A stretch of 64,000 nt of DNA from Claveliimonas bilis. Its GTDB lineage: Bacteria; Bacillota; Clostridia; Lachnospirales; Lachnospiraceae. The notes under the pieces are model-generated. The model saw only the letters and a program-made list of their open reading frames with translations. It did no database searches and was not told the origin of the DNA. Shown one piece after another: positions 2,251-64,000 of this stretch. Numbering within the stretch: position 1 is the stretch's first letter; every line of letters starts with the position of its first letter. The position numbers were made by a program, and so were the translations under genes. Where the stretch lies: contig NZ_AP027742.1 of the NCBI RefSeq assembly GCF_030296775.1, positions 744,001 to 808,000 on the forward strand, given 5' to 3'.

Positions 2251-2406
2251 ATATTCTTCCTCCAATCGGACAGACCGGTAAATCATAGCTATGTCTGTAT
2301 TCTACCACATTTATGACAGTGCACAAGCAAAACCGTAAACACGGATCAAAGATGTTATAAGCTGGAAATCGTTATAGATTGACGACCAATATTATGGTAA
2401 ACTCAG

Positions 2407-2525
2407 GATACAAAGATAAAAACGCAACGCAGGAGAATTTCTCCTGCAGAGCCGGTAGGTAGCCCGGCCGCATCGTAAGGTGTAAGTAACCCTCCCTCCT
2501 TAGGGTCGTCCGTTCTTTGTGTATC
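2407..2525 (+). ncRNA. yjdF-type riboswitch leader (azaaromatic-sensing RNA candidate)
   Basis: About 120 nt immediately upstream of a DUF2992/YjdF reading frame. A closing stem pairs GATACAAAGA (2407-2416) with TCTTTGTGTATC (2514-2525, 2-nt bulge). Inside are GCAGGAG-CTCCTGC, GCCGG-CCGGC and CCCT-AGGG hairpins. The position directly above yjdF and the multi-stem architecture fit the yjdF RNA motif, which is known to bind azaaromatic compounds and typically controls this gene. Assignment rests on gene context and visible stems, not on a covariance-model hit. The ribosome binding site AAGGAGG follows at about 2536-2542. Confidence 0.75.
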
Positions 2526-2549
2526 ACAATTATTTAAGGAGGATTTGTC

Positions 2550-2992: not shown

Positions 2993-3289
2993 CTATGCCG
3001 AATAAATACCTTCTACTGTAATCTGTTTGAAAAATCTGGAGAGCCCTAATCTGACGGTTTCGTCTGCCTGCATCGGGGTTCGGCGGATCAGGACTTCTCC
3101 AAATTCGTGAGGGAAGCTGAGGAAGTTTTGCTCTTTCAGAGCATCTGTCTGTTTTGAATCGACAAACCTTGCCGATATGCTTAAGCGGGGGCCGCCTCAT
3201 GTGCGGCACATGGACGGGGTGATCAGGATGTTCTGGCGGTCGTTTTGTTTCATATGTTCAACTAATCGTTCGTTAAGATGAAATTTCAT
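2993..3289 (-). CDS. Candidate small selenoprotein (in-frame UGA = Sec31)
   Basis: A 98-residue protein if the TGA at 3199-3197 is read as selenocysteine. The start ATG at 3289 has AAGGAGG about 8 nt upstream. Sec31 sits in the motif CRTUGGP (Cys28, Sec31), a redox-like CxxU pair. Coding sense continues after the UGA for 67 residues to TAG. From 20 nt after the UGA, a stem ATCGGC/GTCGAT (3176-3158) carries an apical AGGTT loop. This fits the bacterial SECIS layout and resembles the element behind the selD UGA in this window. The N-terminal half (ITPSMCRTUGGP) recalls small HesB-like or CC/Se-motif selenoproteins, but I cannot assign a family. SelA, SelB and SelD are encoded at 60-64 kb. Alternative: a pseudogene with a nonsense mutation. 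Confidence 0.7.
3158..3176 (-). promoter_or_regulatory. Candidate bacterial SECIS element
   Basis: On the minus strand, 20 nt after the UGA, ATCGGC pairs with GTCGAT. One further A-U pair closes a 5-nt AGGTT loop, with the loop guanines about 28 nt from the UGA. Bacterial SECIS elements have a short apical loop with G in the first two positions at 16-37 nt from the UGA. Confidence 0.6.
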
Positions 3290-3398
3290 AGTGGATTCCT
3301 CCTTTTCTTTTGGTATCTACATTATTGCAGATTGATGCGTAAAGTTCTGTGACGAAGTTACGAAGACAAACGAAACCTAATTATTCTTTGGACGAATT

Positions 3399-59956: not shown

Positions 59957-60997
59957 ATGAAATCAGATGTAAGACTGACAACATTAAGCAAAACATCCGG
60001 ATGAGCGGCTAAAATTGGTCCGGAGACCCTTGCTCAGGTTCTGGGCAAGCTGCCGAAATTCCAGGATGATAATCTGCTGGTTGGAATCGAGACTTCCGAC
60101 GATGCAGCAATATATAAGGTAACAGACGATATAGCTATGATTCAGACAGTAGACTTTTTTACGCCGATTGTAGATGATCCTTATATGTTCGGACAGATTG
60201 CAGCGGCCAATTCTTTGAGCGATGTGTGGGCCATGGGAGGAGAACCGGCAGTTGCGCTGAATATTGTCGGATTTCCTAATTGTCTGGACCCGGCGATCCT
60301 GGGAGATATCCTTGCAGGGGGCGCAGACAAAGTAAAAGAAGCAGGTGCGGTCCTTGTAGGAGGGCATTCCGTGCAGGATGACGAGCCGAAATACGGGCTG
60401 TGTGTGTCCGGTTTTGTACATCCGGATAAGATTTTCAAAAATTACGGATGCAGGCCGGGAGATGTGCTGGTATTGACAAAGCAGATCGGAAGCGGCGTCA
60501 TTAATACTGCCATCAAGGCAGAGATGGCTTCTCCGTCCGCAGTGAAAGAAGCGCAGATGGTTATGGCATCCTTGAACAGGATTGCAAAGCGGGTGACAGA
60601 ACGGTATCATGTATCCGCATGTACCGACATTACCGGTTTTGGTCTTCTCGGCCATTGTGTGGAGATGGCTGAGGCAAGCGATGTAACCTTTGAGCTTAAA
60701 GTAAAGGATATTGCCTATATGGCAGATGCCATTGATTATGCCAAAATGGGACTTGTCCCGGCAGGGACTTATAAAAACAGGGGATACTCCATTGGCAAGG
60801 TGGAGACAGGATCTATTGAAGAGTGTTATGTAGATCTTCTGTATGATCCGCAGACATCCGGAGGACTGCTGCTGAGCGTTTCCCCGGATGATGTAGAGGG
60901 AATGATGCGTGACTTTGAACATGCCGGTATGGAGACAACTGTATCCATAATCGGAAAAGTGGCGCCAAAAAGCGACAAACTGATCCGCTTATTCTAA
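59957..60997 (+). CDS. selD: Selenide, water dikinase, Sec-containing
   Basis: 346 residues when the TGA at 60002-60004 is read as Sec16. It uses ATP to turn selenide into selenophosphate, the Se donor for Sec-tRNA. N-terminus MKSDVRLTTLSKTSGUAAKIGP: Sec16 and Lys19 correspond to the catalytic Cys17/Lys20 of E. coli. Later DDAAIYKV, QTVDFFTPIVDDPYMFGQIAAANSLSDVWAMGG, GGHSVQDDEPKYGL and TDITGFGLLGH are family motifs. ATG 59957 has AAAAAGGGGG upstream. A naive gene finder would begin at the internal ATG 60137 and lose the active site. selA and selB follow. Confidence 0.93.
60029..60049 (+). promoter_or_regulatory. SECIS element of selD
   Basis: Starting 24 nt after the UGA, CTTGCTCA pairs with TGGGCAAG (8 bp, one wobble) around the 5-nt loop GGTTC. 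The loop begins 32 nt behind the UGA. This matches the bacterial SECIS plan and makes SelB-dependent Sec insertion credible. Confidence 0.75.
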
Positions 60998-61057: not shown

Positions 61058-62464
61058 ATGGATAAAAAAAGTTTATACCGCAGCATACCCAAAGTGGATG
61101 TGCTGCTTGCAGATGAGCAGATACAGGGACTGATTGAAACTTACAGCCGTGATACAGTCATGGAGGCAGTGCGTACCCAGACAGACCGTCTGCGCGCCTT
61201 TATCGGGACATGCACAGACGAGGGAGAGGCACTCGGTAAGATCAATGCTCTTAAAGATGATGTGGCCCGGGCTGTGAAGTCTCTTCACACGCCCAATATG
61301 CGCAAGGTGATAAACGGAACCGGAACGGTTCTTCACACCAATCTGGGAAGGGCGCCGATCTGCGAAGAACATATGAAAAAAGCAGCGGAACTTGTAACAG
61401 GATATTCCAATCTGGAATACAATCTGGAAGAAGGGAAGAGGGGAGAGAGATATTCTCATTTTGAAGAGCTTCTCTGCCGTCTGACCGGAGCGGAAGCAGC
61501 TATGGCTGTCAACAATAATGCGGCGGCGGTTATGCTGATCTTAAGTTCTCTGGCAAAGGGAGGCGAAGTGATCGTCTCCAGAGGAGAGCTGGTAGAGATT
61601 GGCGGAAAATTCCGGATTCCGGATGTGATGGAACAAAGCGGGGCGTCTCTTGTAGAGGTGGGAACAACAAACAAGACGCACTACAGTGACTATGAAGAAG
61701 CTGTGACTGAGGAAACAAAAGCTCTTCTGAAAGTTCATACAAGCAATTACCGGATTGTGGGATTTACGGATTCTGTCACTATGGAAGAGCTGCTGCCTTT
61801 AGCTAAAGAGCATCATATCCCGCTCATTGAAGATTTGGGAAGCGGCGTTCTGATCGATTTAAGCAAATACGGGCTCACCTATGAGCCTACTGTACAGGAT
61901 TCCATCGCAAAAGGAGCAGATGTGGTCTGCTTCAGCGGGGACAAGCTTCTTGGAGGCCCGCAGGCAGGCATTATCATCGGGAAAAAGGAATATATCAGCA
62001 AGATGAAAAAAAATCAGCTGACAAGAGCGCTTCGGATCGATAAATTTACAGCTGCAGCCCTGGAACTTGTGCTGCAGGAATATTTGTCCGAAGAAAAAGC
62101 GCTGCAGCATATCCCGGTGCTGTCCATGATCACACGGAAGCCGGAAGAAGTGAAAAAGGATGCCTCTGCTTTGGTGCGGAAACTGAAAAGGGCACATCTT
62201 CCTGCCAGGGTGGAGCTCATATCCTGTCAGTCACAGATCGGGGGAGGTTCTCTTCCGATGGAGAGACTTTCAAGCTATGGGGCAGCGATCCACCCGGAGA
62301 AGATCAGTGTGCCGGTATTGGAAGAGAGGATGAGGCATCTGGAAGTTCCGATCATTCCACGGGTTGTAAATGATACCATTCTCATTGACGCCAGAACACT
62401 TCAGAAAGGCGACGGTGACCTTCTTGTCCGTCAGCTGAAGGAACAGGAGGTGTTGGAACCGTGA
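61058..62464 (+). CDS. selA: L-seryl-tRNA(Sec) selenium transferase
   Basis: 468 residues, PLP enzyme of fold type I that converts Ser-tRNA(Sec) to Sec-tRNA(Sec) with selenophosphate. Features: RKVINGTGTVLHTNLGRAP (about 82-100), SNLEYNLEEGKRGERYSH, VNNNAAAVMLIL, and the PLP lysine in CFSGDKLLGGPQAGII (about 290-305). Full length for SelA. CGAGAGGAAAG precedes ATG. The stop overlaps the GTG start of selB by 4 bp. Confidence 0.96.
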   Translation: MDKKSLYRSIPKVDVLLADEQIQGLIETYSRDTVMEAVRTQTDRLRAFIGTCTDEGEALGKINALKDDVARAVKSLHTPNMRKVINGTGTVLHTNLGRAPICEEHMKKAAELVTGYSNLEYNLEEGKRGERYSHFEELLCRLTGAEAAMAVNNNAAAVMLILSSLAKGGEVIVSRGELVEIGGKFRIPDVMEQSGASLVEVGTTNKTHYSDYEEAVTEETKALLKVHTSNYRIVGFTDSVTMEELLPLAKEHHIPLIEDLGSGVLIDLSKYGLTYEPTVQDSIAKGADVVCFSGDKLLGGPQAGIIIGKKEYISKMKKNQLTRALRIDKFTAAALELVLQEYLSEEKALQHIPVLSMITRKPEEVKKDASALVRKLKRAHLPARVELISCQSQIGGGSLPMERLSSYGAAIHPEKISVPVLEERMRHLEVPIIPRVVNDTILIDARTLQKGDGDLLVRQLKEQEVLEP

Positions 62465-64000
62465 AGCACATTATCATAGGAACAGCCGGACATATCGATC
62501 ACGGGAAAACGACTCTGATCAAGGCTCTGACCGGAAGAAACACAGACCGGTGGGAAGAAGAGCAGAGACGGGGAATCACCATAGACCTGGGATTTACATG
62601 GTTTGACCTGCCGGGAGGAGACCGGGCGGGAATTATTGATGTGCCCGGACATGAACGGTTCATCAACAACATGGTTGCCGGTGTTGTGGGGATGGATATG
62701 GTTCTCCTTGTAGTTGCGGCAGATGAAGGGATCATGCCCCAGACAAGAGAACACATGGATATCCTAAGTCTTCTTGGCATTGAAAAAAGTATTATTGTTC
62801 TGAATAAATGCGACCTTGTAGACGAAGAGTGGACAGAGCTGGTGGAAGAAGAAATTCGGGAAGAACTGGCAGGAAGCTTTTTGGAAAAAGCGCCGATTGT
62901 CCGGGTTTCAGCCGCTACGGGAGCAGGTTTAAAAGAGCTGGTGGATATCATTGAAAAAATAGCGGAGGAAGAGGTGGTGGAAAAGGATACGGCTACCATT
63001 CCCCGCCTTCCCATAGACAGGGCTTTTTCCCTGTCCGGTTTCGGGACAATTATCACCGGAACTCTTCTGTCCGGAACGATCACAAAAGAAGATGTCTTGG
63101 AAATGTATCCCATCGGGAAGACAAGCAAGATACGAAGCATTCAGGTGCACGGTCAGGATGTGGACAAATGCTATGCCGGTCAGCGGGTTGCCATCAACCT
63201 TTCCAATATCAAAAAAAGAGAAATCGGAAGGGGCTGTGTCCTGGCGCCTCCGGGAAGTATGAAAAATACAGACCTTCTGGATGTGAAGATGAATATTCTG
63301 GATTCTTCTATGCGGGTGCTGACAAACCATACCAGACTGCATCTTTTTACCGGAACAAGTGAGATCCTTTGTCGTGCCGTCCTTCTGGACAAGGAAGAAA
63401 TCGGACCGGGCGAGAGCGGCTATGTGCAGCTTAGGCTGGAAGAGGAAATCGCCCTTCGGCGCGGAGATAAGTTTGTTGTACGTTTTTATTCTCCTATGGA
63501 AACAATCGGCGGAGGAGTGGTTCTTGAGCCTAATCCTTCCATTCACAGGCGCTTCCAGGAGCCGGTGATCGAAGATCTCAAAAGAAAGGAATCCGGATCC
63601 ACTGCAGACGTCATTGAAATGCATGTGAAGAATTATAAAGACACGATGATAACCCTGTCAGATCTGGCACGCCTGACAGCTCTCTCCCCGGAAGAAGTGG
63701 AGCAGGATATTGAAGAACTGAAAGAACAGGGGCTTATCCGGACATATGCTTTGAAAAAAGATACTTATGTATGGCATGCAGGAGCGGCAAAGGAAGCAGA
63801 AGAGATACTTCTGAATGCGCTGAAAAAGTATGAGGCGTCGTATCCTTACCGCTATGGCATGAAAAAGGCGGAGATACATACAAATTATTTCCGCAAGATC
63901 AAGCCTAATGTGTTCGATCTCTATATCGGAAGCCTGACGGAAGAAGGGATTCTTGAGAGGGTGGATGAATTTTTATGTACGCCCGGTTATCAGGTAAGAA
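62461..64000 (+). CDS. selB: Selenocysteine-specific elongation factor (partial at window end)
   Basis: GTG start overlapping the selA stop (GTGA). More than 510 residues are visible; the frame runs off the window edge, so the C-terminus is missing. GTPase motifs: [17 protein letters not shown] (P-loop, about 7-23), RGITIDLGF (switch I), [12 protein letters not shown] (G3) and NKCD (G4), then EF-Tu-like beta-barrel domains II/III and the start of the winged-helix repeats ([20 protein letters not shown]). SelB carries Sec-tRNA to the ribosome and binds the SECIS hairpin with its last winged helices. Confidence 0.95.

Follow-up and report, generated by a model that had tools for sequence, protein, structure and literature searches.

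The window analysed here, a stretch of 64,000 nt from Claveliimonas bilis, carries a minus-strand reading frame of 98 codons that contains one in-frame TGA and is, judging from the sequence, very probably (about 0.95) a genuine selenoprotein gene. Genes for selenocysteine (Sec) synthesis and insertion are found in the same window. The features are as follows.

2993–3289, minus strand: probable selenoprotein gene, 98 codons, with ATG at 3289–3287, UGA at codon 31 and TAG at 2995–2993
3197–3199, minus strand: UGA codon 31, presumably read as selenocysteine; in frame in the CxTU-type homologues
3206–3208, minus strand: codon of Cys28, the CxxU partner, from the sequence
3298–3304, minus strand: ribosome-binding site AAGGAGG, 8 nt upstream of the ATG, from the sequence
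3158–3176, minus strand: SECIS-type hairpin, 8-bp stem, GGT loop at 3168–3166, 28 nt after the UGA
2948–2982, no strand assigned: terminator-like stem, common to the selenoprotein gene and the convergent DUF2992 (yjdF-like) gene
59957–60997, plus strand: selD (TIGR00476, 398 bits, cut-off 125)
61058–62464, plus strand: selA (TIGR00474, 616 bits)
62461–64000, plus strand: selB, truncated by the window end, open frame (TIGR00475, 348 bits)

The gene and its second copy

The frame, its coordinates, the lone TGA at codon 31, the CRTUGGP motif around it, the AAGGAGG sequence and the terminal TAG were all re-read from the DNA just as an earlier, sequence-only reading had given them. The predicted product is MKFHLNERLVEHMKQNDRQNILITPSMCRTUGGPRLSISARFVDSKQTDALKEQNFLSFPHEFGEVLIRRTPMQADETVRLGLSRFFKQITVEGIYSA (98 residues), with one Cys (28), one Sec (31) and none near the C-terminus. 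The gene is identical in the window genome and in a second genome of the same species, G343. It forms a single-gene unit, with a divergent DUF2935 gene on one side and the convergent DUF2992 gene on the other. A two-way terminator had been proposed here, and this is partly borne out: a pattern scan calls a terminator on the plus strand only, while the minus strand folds into a strong stem with a T-rich stretch behind it. The DUF2992 gene (nt 2597–2965) is preceded by an azaaromatic (yjdF) riboswitch (RF01764, nt 2406–2529, plus strand, 61 bits).

The window genome carries two copies of the clade, of differing layouts. The second lies outside the window (locus L065, G000:C1:1642835-1643122, plus strand), displays a vicinal Sec-Cys motif, TSUCAPP, and has a 6-bp hairpin with a GTT loop after its UGA. 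This paralogue was missed by the single-sequence search of the window genome. Genes of the same type (UC type) also occur in G192, G202, G210, G376 and G785.

Conservation past the UGA and selenocysteine decoding

The sequence-only reading had proposed a search for homologues with an aligned in-frame UGA, and full-length examples were found at 57–73% identity. One with a single in-frame TGA aligns to residues 1–97 (E 3.4e-34). Among 98 relatives, eight genomes match, including the window genome itself; four of the others have full-length copies with one TGA inside (57–59% identity), and the remaining three comprise G003, with a copy split at contig ends, G050, with a weak UGA-less match, and G042, taken as chance. 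Two further UGA-bearing homologues, L011 and L016, share 72–73% identity. A search across 84,980 species, each represented by a single genome, produced 73 pattern matches, of which five loci were confirmed, while four pattern matches in viral contigs yielded none, and phage and plasmid records were searched without a match.

Three overlapping genome sets were sampled at higher ranks. In the family sample (397 genomes) 18 match, 14 with TGA-bearing copies (the window genome included) and four without a TGA; the figure of 14 is a lower bound, because UC-type copies were later found in G202 and G376 (both with SelA), and the profile had missed these as well as the second copy in the window genome. 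The class sample (391 genomes) has 13 matches, namely the window genome, one UC-type gene from another family, ten proteins resembling the CC/Se motif family (NF041239, see below) and a chance match in G630. The order sample (392 genomes) has eight, including two more UC-type genes and three UGA-less genes. The matches L008 (G042) and L063 (G630) were discarded as chance by judgement.

Two copies are incomplete. The G003 gene is in two pieces: the first part sits at a contig end (L006, C60), and a C-terminal part close to where a different contig ends (L009, C69). In G132, the match to the UGA-bearing L024 (G132:C1:3123186-3123344) stops at codon 53, and a second copy, L030, lies elsewhere in that genome. 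L006, L009 and L024 were excluded from the 22-member clade alignment, from profile alignments A6 and A7, and from the tree; L006 contributed its hairpin and, for one dN/dS pair, the 25 codons that directly follow its UGA, and L024 its hairpin only.

Homologues that end at codon 30, or that lack conservation after it, would have spoken against a selenoprotein. Instead, conserved residues run past the UGA to the end of the protein in homologues from several genera. After the UGA, dN is lower than dS in five usable pairs (0.02/0.24, 0.05/0.52, 0.17/1.42, 0.26/0.91 and 0.35/1.81), which share sequences and so are not independent, and of which the second covers 25 codons only. Three of the eight pairs were left unused, two with saturated dS after the UGA and one, L011–L017, being out of register.

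The hairpin after the UGA is formed by ATCGGCAA/TTGTCGAT, 8 bp closing a 3-nt GGT loop. A SECIS-like hairpin had been claimed here, and it is present, but this description fits better than the ATCGGC/GTCGAT stem with an AGGTT loop given originally. The bSECIS model of PMC13188914 has a loop of 3–9 nt with a G within its first two positions, an upper stem of 4–16 bp, 16–37 nt from UGA to loop, and a minimum free energy of at most -7.5 kcal/mol. Against the model as it is given there, the window hairpin agrees in loop (3 nt, GGT), stem (8 bp) and spacing (28 nt), and the bare 25-nt hairpin, at -7.0 kcal/mol, is borderline. The 54 nt after the UGA fold at -12.4 kcal/mol, a second stem included.

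Comparable hairpins, with a stem of at most 8 counted bp and a 3-nt loop starting with G, occur in 21 UGA-bearing sequences, 18 of them distinct over 29 nt; the UC-type L053, L065, L089 and L090 do not figure in this count. The loop lies 25, 28 or 31 nt from the UGA, and the spacing shifts in threes because of in-frame indels. Across the 18 distinct sequences 95.8% of 144 cells are paired, and two-sided changes occur at six of the eight pairs (17 cells). The covariation looked for in the stem was thus found: none of 500 column shuffles reached the percentage paired, the number of two-sided pairs or cells, or the covariation score, and only the number of pair types was unremarkable (90 of 500 shuffles as high). 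Kinship can inflate such a shuffle result, but a control that slides the partner arm by 1–3 columns retains kinship, and there pairing falls to 13–47%. All 21 UGA-bearing hairpins keep six to eight of the eight pairs, against 5, 2, 5 and 4 in the four UGA-less homologues tested. Where the loop codon specifies Arg, UGA-bearing genes use AGG or AGA, whereas three of the four UGA-less genes have CGN.

SelD, SelA and SelB had been reported for the window, and all three were recovered by profile match, selB being cut at the window end. The selD gene has a UGA codon of its own (nt 60002–60004) with a hairpin 33 nt later. The earlier description of its loop as GGTTC came near: a hairpin does follow the UGA, and folding predicts a GTT loop with a G-C closing pair inside CAGGTTCTG.

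Presence of the gene tracks this machinery. SelA is above cut-off in 62 of 397 family genomes. Of the 14 whose copy bears a UGA, 13 have it, against 49 of the 383 others; the four with a UGA-less copy only all lack it. A Fisher test of 13/14 against 49/383 gives p of about 1e-10, a value that ignores shared ancestry and assumes that the SelA and gene counts come from the same draw of 397 genomes (the genome handles agree). SelB is above cut-off in 17 of 22 genomes checked, the other five being the four UGA-less genomes and G151. Among 33 genomes with copies of the window protein's clade or of CC/Se, the 26 with UGA-bearing copies have a tRNA-Sec of at least 61.9 bits in 25 cases (18/18 in the family, 7/8 in the class), and the seven with UGA-less copies in none. 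The exceptional values lie close to the gathering score of 47, at 46.7 bits in G711 (CC/Se-like, UGA-bearing) and 47.3 bits in G556 (UGA-less).

One UGA-bearing genome, G151 (L037, L067), lacks a SelA match and a SelB above cut-off, and neither gene lies near its tRNA-Sec. That tRNA-Sec is strong, and a frame next to it passes the cut-off of the model for glycine/betaine/sarcosine reductase selenoprotein B (TIGR01918, 520 bits). The absent genes could sit in an assembly gap (96% completeness), or the genome may represent an unusual state.

Two other accounts of the UGA were considered, and each is given only a few chances in a hundred. UGA is a normal stop codon elsewhere, and were it a plain stop here the locus would hold a 30-residue peptide or a decaying gene; either half alone is indeed short, but residues conserved up to the C-terminus, dN below dS in the five usable pairs of eight, and a covarying hairpin all run counter to this. 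Decoding of the UGA as Trp or Cys, or by leaky read-through, is equally hard to credit. The inserted residue is not readable from the sequence and one relative has a Cys at the site, yet gene presence follows SelA, SelB and tRNA-Sec, and the hairpin not only matches the bacterial SECIS pattern in its loop, stem and distance from the UGA but has decayed in those UGA-less homologues that were tested. With a conserved UGA, coding sequence on both sides of it, a covarying hairpin and the Sec machinery, the proposal of a small selenoprotein holds up well. In selenocysteine insertion as we picture it, SelB would bind the hairpin and bring Sec-tRNA-Sec to the UGA, and the outcome would be a protein of 98 residues with one Cys and one Sec in a CxxU arrangement.

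Relatives of the protein and its predicted fold

Single-sequence scans of the window protein against Pfam, NCBIfam and PHROGs gave nothing significant, and no match to NF041239 was obtained up to E 10. None of the clade members scanned is shown as passing a Pfam or NCBIfam cut-off; for NF041239 (cut-off 40 bits), L005 scores 16.5 and L018 15.6, and such sub-threshold hits of relatives extend over the whole protein. Five of the 22 members of the clade alignment are matched by this model, the best at E 1.4e-6, which is below the cut-off on a scale where 37.7 bits corresponds to about 1.6e-9. A search of the 98 relatives with NF041239 found no match, and likewise none in 14 controls, and so says nothing either way. 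Of the ten CC/Se-like proteins aligned from the class sample, seven were scanned, and six pass the cut-off while one reaches 37.7 bits.

Profile comparison links these groups over nearly their whole length. The clade against the ten CC/Se-like proteins gives 98.3% over 87 columns (hhalign), and the clade against four UC-type proteins 98.6%; profile alignments A6 and A7 are not independent, because A7 was found with a profile containing A6. In a midpoint-rooted tree, 24 clade rows are parted from ten CC/Se rows by a branch with support 100/99. The two families have in common a size of about 91–98 residues, the order of elements, the Sec/Cys region and a C-terminal V-x-G, as well as the CxxU motif published for CC/Se (NF041239, Moor_selen_rel). 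What sets the window clade apart is an RF motif that follows the Sec, a separate branch in the tree, and UGA-less members that carry Ser or, in one case, Cys. From these sequence comparisons, it is probably a sister of the CC/Se motif family, apart from it.

According to Table 1 of PMC13188914, NF041239 is a hypothetical protein with a CxxU motif, predicted in Moorella thermoacetica, and the HesB-like family TIGR01911 has a UxGP motif. Among the families in that table (119 by the paper's own count), only these two fit the clade when judged by name and motif. A literature search on the genus yielded selenium papers of a general kind, and none of the 10 listed mentions Claveliimonas. The protein had been called undescribed, and this suits the clade in so far as no scanned member is shown over a Pfam or NCBIfam cut-off, yet the CC/Se motif family, to which it is distantly related, has already been described.

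Similarity to the HesB-like selenoproteins (TIGR01911; IscA_HesB_Se, NF038090) consists of a UxGP-type motif (UGGP here) and a predicted IscA/HesB-like fold, and the Sec columns of the two groups coincide in the alignment. The window genome has no match to either TIGR01911 (cut-off 66.35 bits) or NF038090. Direct profile comparison of the clade with the HesB-like selenoproteins aligns an 11-column motif only, at 6.6%; CC/Se compared with the same proteins gives 94.3% (hhalign). One CC/Se member has a sub-threshold match to PF01521, Fe-S_biosyn (18.3 against 26.3 bits). A sequence search of the PDB found nothing significant, the best CC/Se match being 2qgo, a putative Fe-S biosynthesis protein, at E 0.51.

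AlphaFold2, run on a five-row alignment, predicted a structure with pLDDT 79.9 and pTM 0.71; of its five models, two came near a pLDDT of 80 and the others had 55–64. The first five Foldseek matches are SufA, IscA, AQ_1857, IscA and IscA (E 3e-3 to 6.5e-3, query TM 0.49–0.57). Among the first eight (query TM 0.46–0.57, identity 8–16%), six are SufA or IscA, and the remaining two, AQ_1857 and a model with YneR, are HesB-like. The probability reaches 1.00, but the best E is 3e-3 and the best TM 0.57; no match has E as low as 0.001. The best structural matches are not thioredoxin-like. Together with the weak profile links, this model of moderate confidence makes an IscA/HesB-like fold likely, and the joint proposition of a selenoprotein whose clade is sister to CC/Se and has a HesB-like fold is considered likely.

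IscA/SufA A-type carriers (PF01521) have three ligand cysteines, two of them in a C-terminal CxC. They supply the top structural matches of the predicted model, and the Sec presumably falls in the loop where IscA has its first ligand Cys. Unlike these carriers, the window protein has one Cys and one Sec and no C-terminal CxC, and therefore probably does not serve as an ordinary scaffold for Fe-S assembly.

Variation at the selenocysteine site and possible roles

Seven clade members are UGA-less (L007, L025, L026, L029, L088, L091 and L092), and in these the Sec column holds Ser in six cases and Cys in one (four placed in the alignment, three aligned by eye), the Sec region being replaced by a conserved [SC]-[DE]-x-[DE]-[VI]-x-E stretch. 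A strong tRNA-Sec was sought in the genomes of L007, L025, L026 and L029, and none was found. The four UGA-less members from the family sample form a single branch (support 100/97) within the UGA-bearing ones in the midpoint-rooted tree, which may reflect a single loss of Sec; with this one branch to go by, the joint disappearance of UGA and machinery may represent a single event. Cys-for-Sec orthologues had been named as a check. In the clade itself only one UGA-less member of seven answers to this, and none of the homologues found is a CxTU-type orthologue with a plain Cys in place of Sec, but Cys forms do exist in the sister CC/Se family.

Where Sec is kept, three layouts can be distinguished, CxxU, UC and a lone U. 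The Cys partner stands three residues before the Sec (CxxU), directly after it (UC, as in TSUC), or off the motif, as in L030, with its sole Cys close to the C-terminus, and L031, without any Cys; both retain Sec. Sec varies less than its Cys partner, which tips the balance slightly towards a selenol that binds a metal or cluster and away from an obligate Cys–Sec redox pair.

The gene neighbourhood shows no conserved operon, the larger clusters consisting of common families at varying positions. In L011 a gene with a CobW domain ends 145 nt upstream of the start, and a similar frame precedes the gene in G397. In G431 a sub-threshold AhpC/TSA frame (24.8 against 26 bits) begins 295 nt past the match start, and G132 has a similar frame. 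These small-group neighbours, CobW-domain on the one side and AhpC/TSA-like on the other, point both ways, to metal and to redox readings.

The full-length profile similarity, and the five of 22 members matched by NF041239, would speak for counting the protein within the described CC/Se family. Against membership stand the missing match of the window protein, the scores of L005 and L018 far under 40 bits, and the 100/99 branch between the two sets (although the CC/Se rows are few, 10), and this assignment is regarded as unlikely. As to function, the customary reading of a CxxU motif is redox (PMC13188914), and one Cys and one Sec at this spacing, together with the AhpC/TSA-like neighbours in G431 and G132, would suit a thiol–selenol pair of a small oxidoreductase. 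The Cys is shifted or absent in parts of the clade (TSUC; L030, L031) while Sec is retained, the structural matches are not thioredoxin-like, and the redoxin-like neighbour is confined to one genus, so that such a pair can be entertained as a possibility, short of an even chance.

On the sequence evidence we tentatively prefer a role in which Sec would act as a selenolate binding a soft metal or cluster in a dimer. A reversible Se–S redox switch may serve instead and is ranked closely after it; other chemistry makes up the remainder. A wider proposal, put forward with some reserve, is that the clade may be an IscA-like selenoprotein branch, mainly of Lachnospiraceae in the present material, with the selenol as a metal or cluster ligand and the UGA-less Ser form in another role. 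If so, Sec would stay while its Cys partner moves or vanishes, and after loss of Sec decoding the Ser protein would survive in a different capacity. A clade with a roaming Cys partner and a Sec-to-Ser branch provides a clear test case for the use of selenium in redox chemistry as against metal binding.

The present results add a clade of small selenoproteins unnamed by the models scanned. Selenoproteins are readily overlooked because their genes look broken, and the clade alignments suffice for a family model usable by annotation pipelines. One neighbour of a UC-type gene may also be recorded: in G192, a PpiC-type peptidyl-prolyl isomerase gene (L048:8602-9339, minus strand) ends 12 nt before the matched start.
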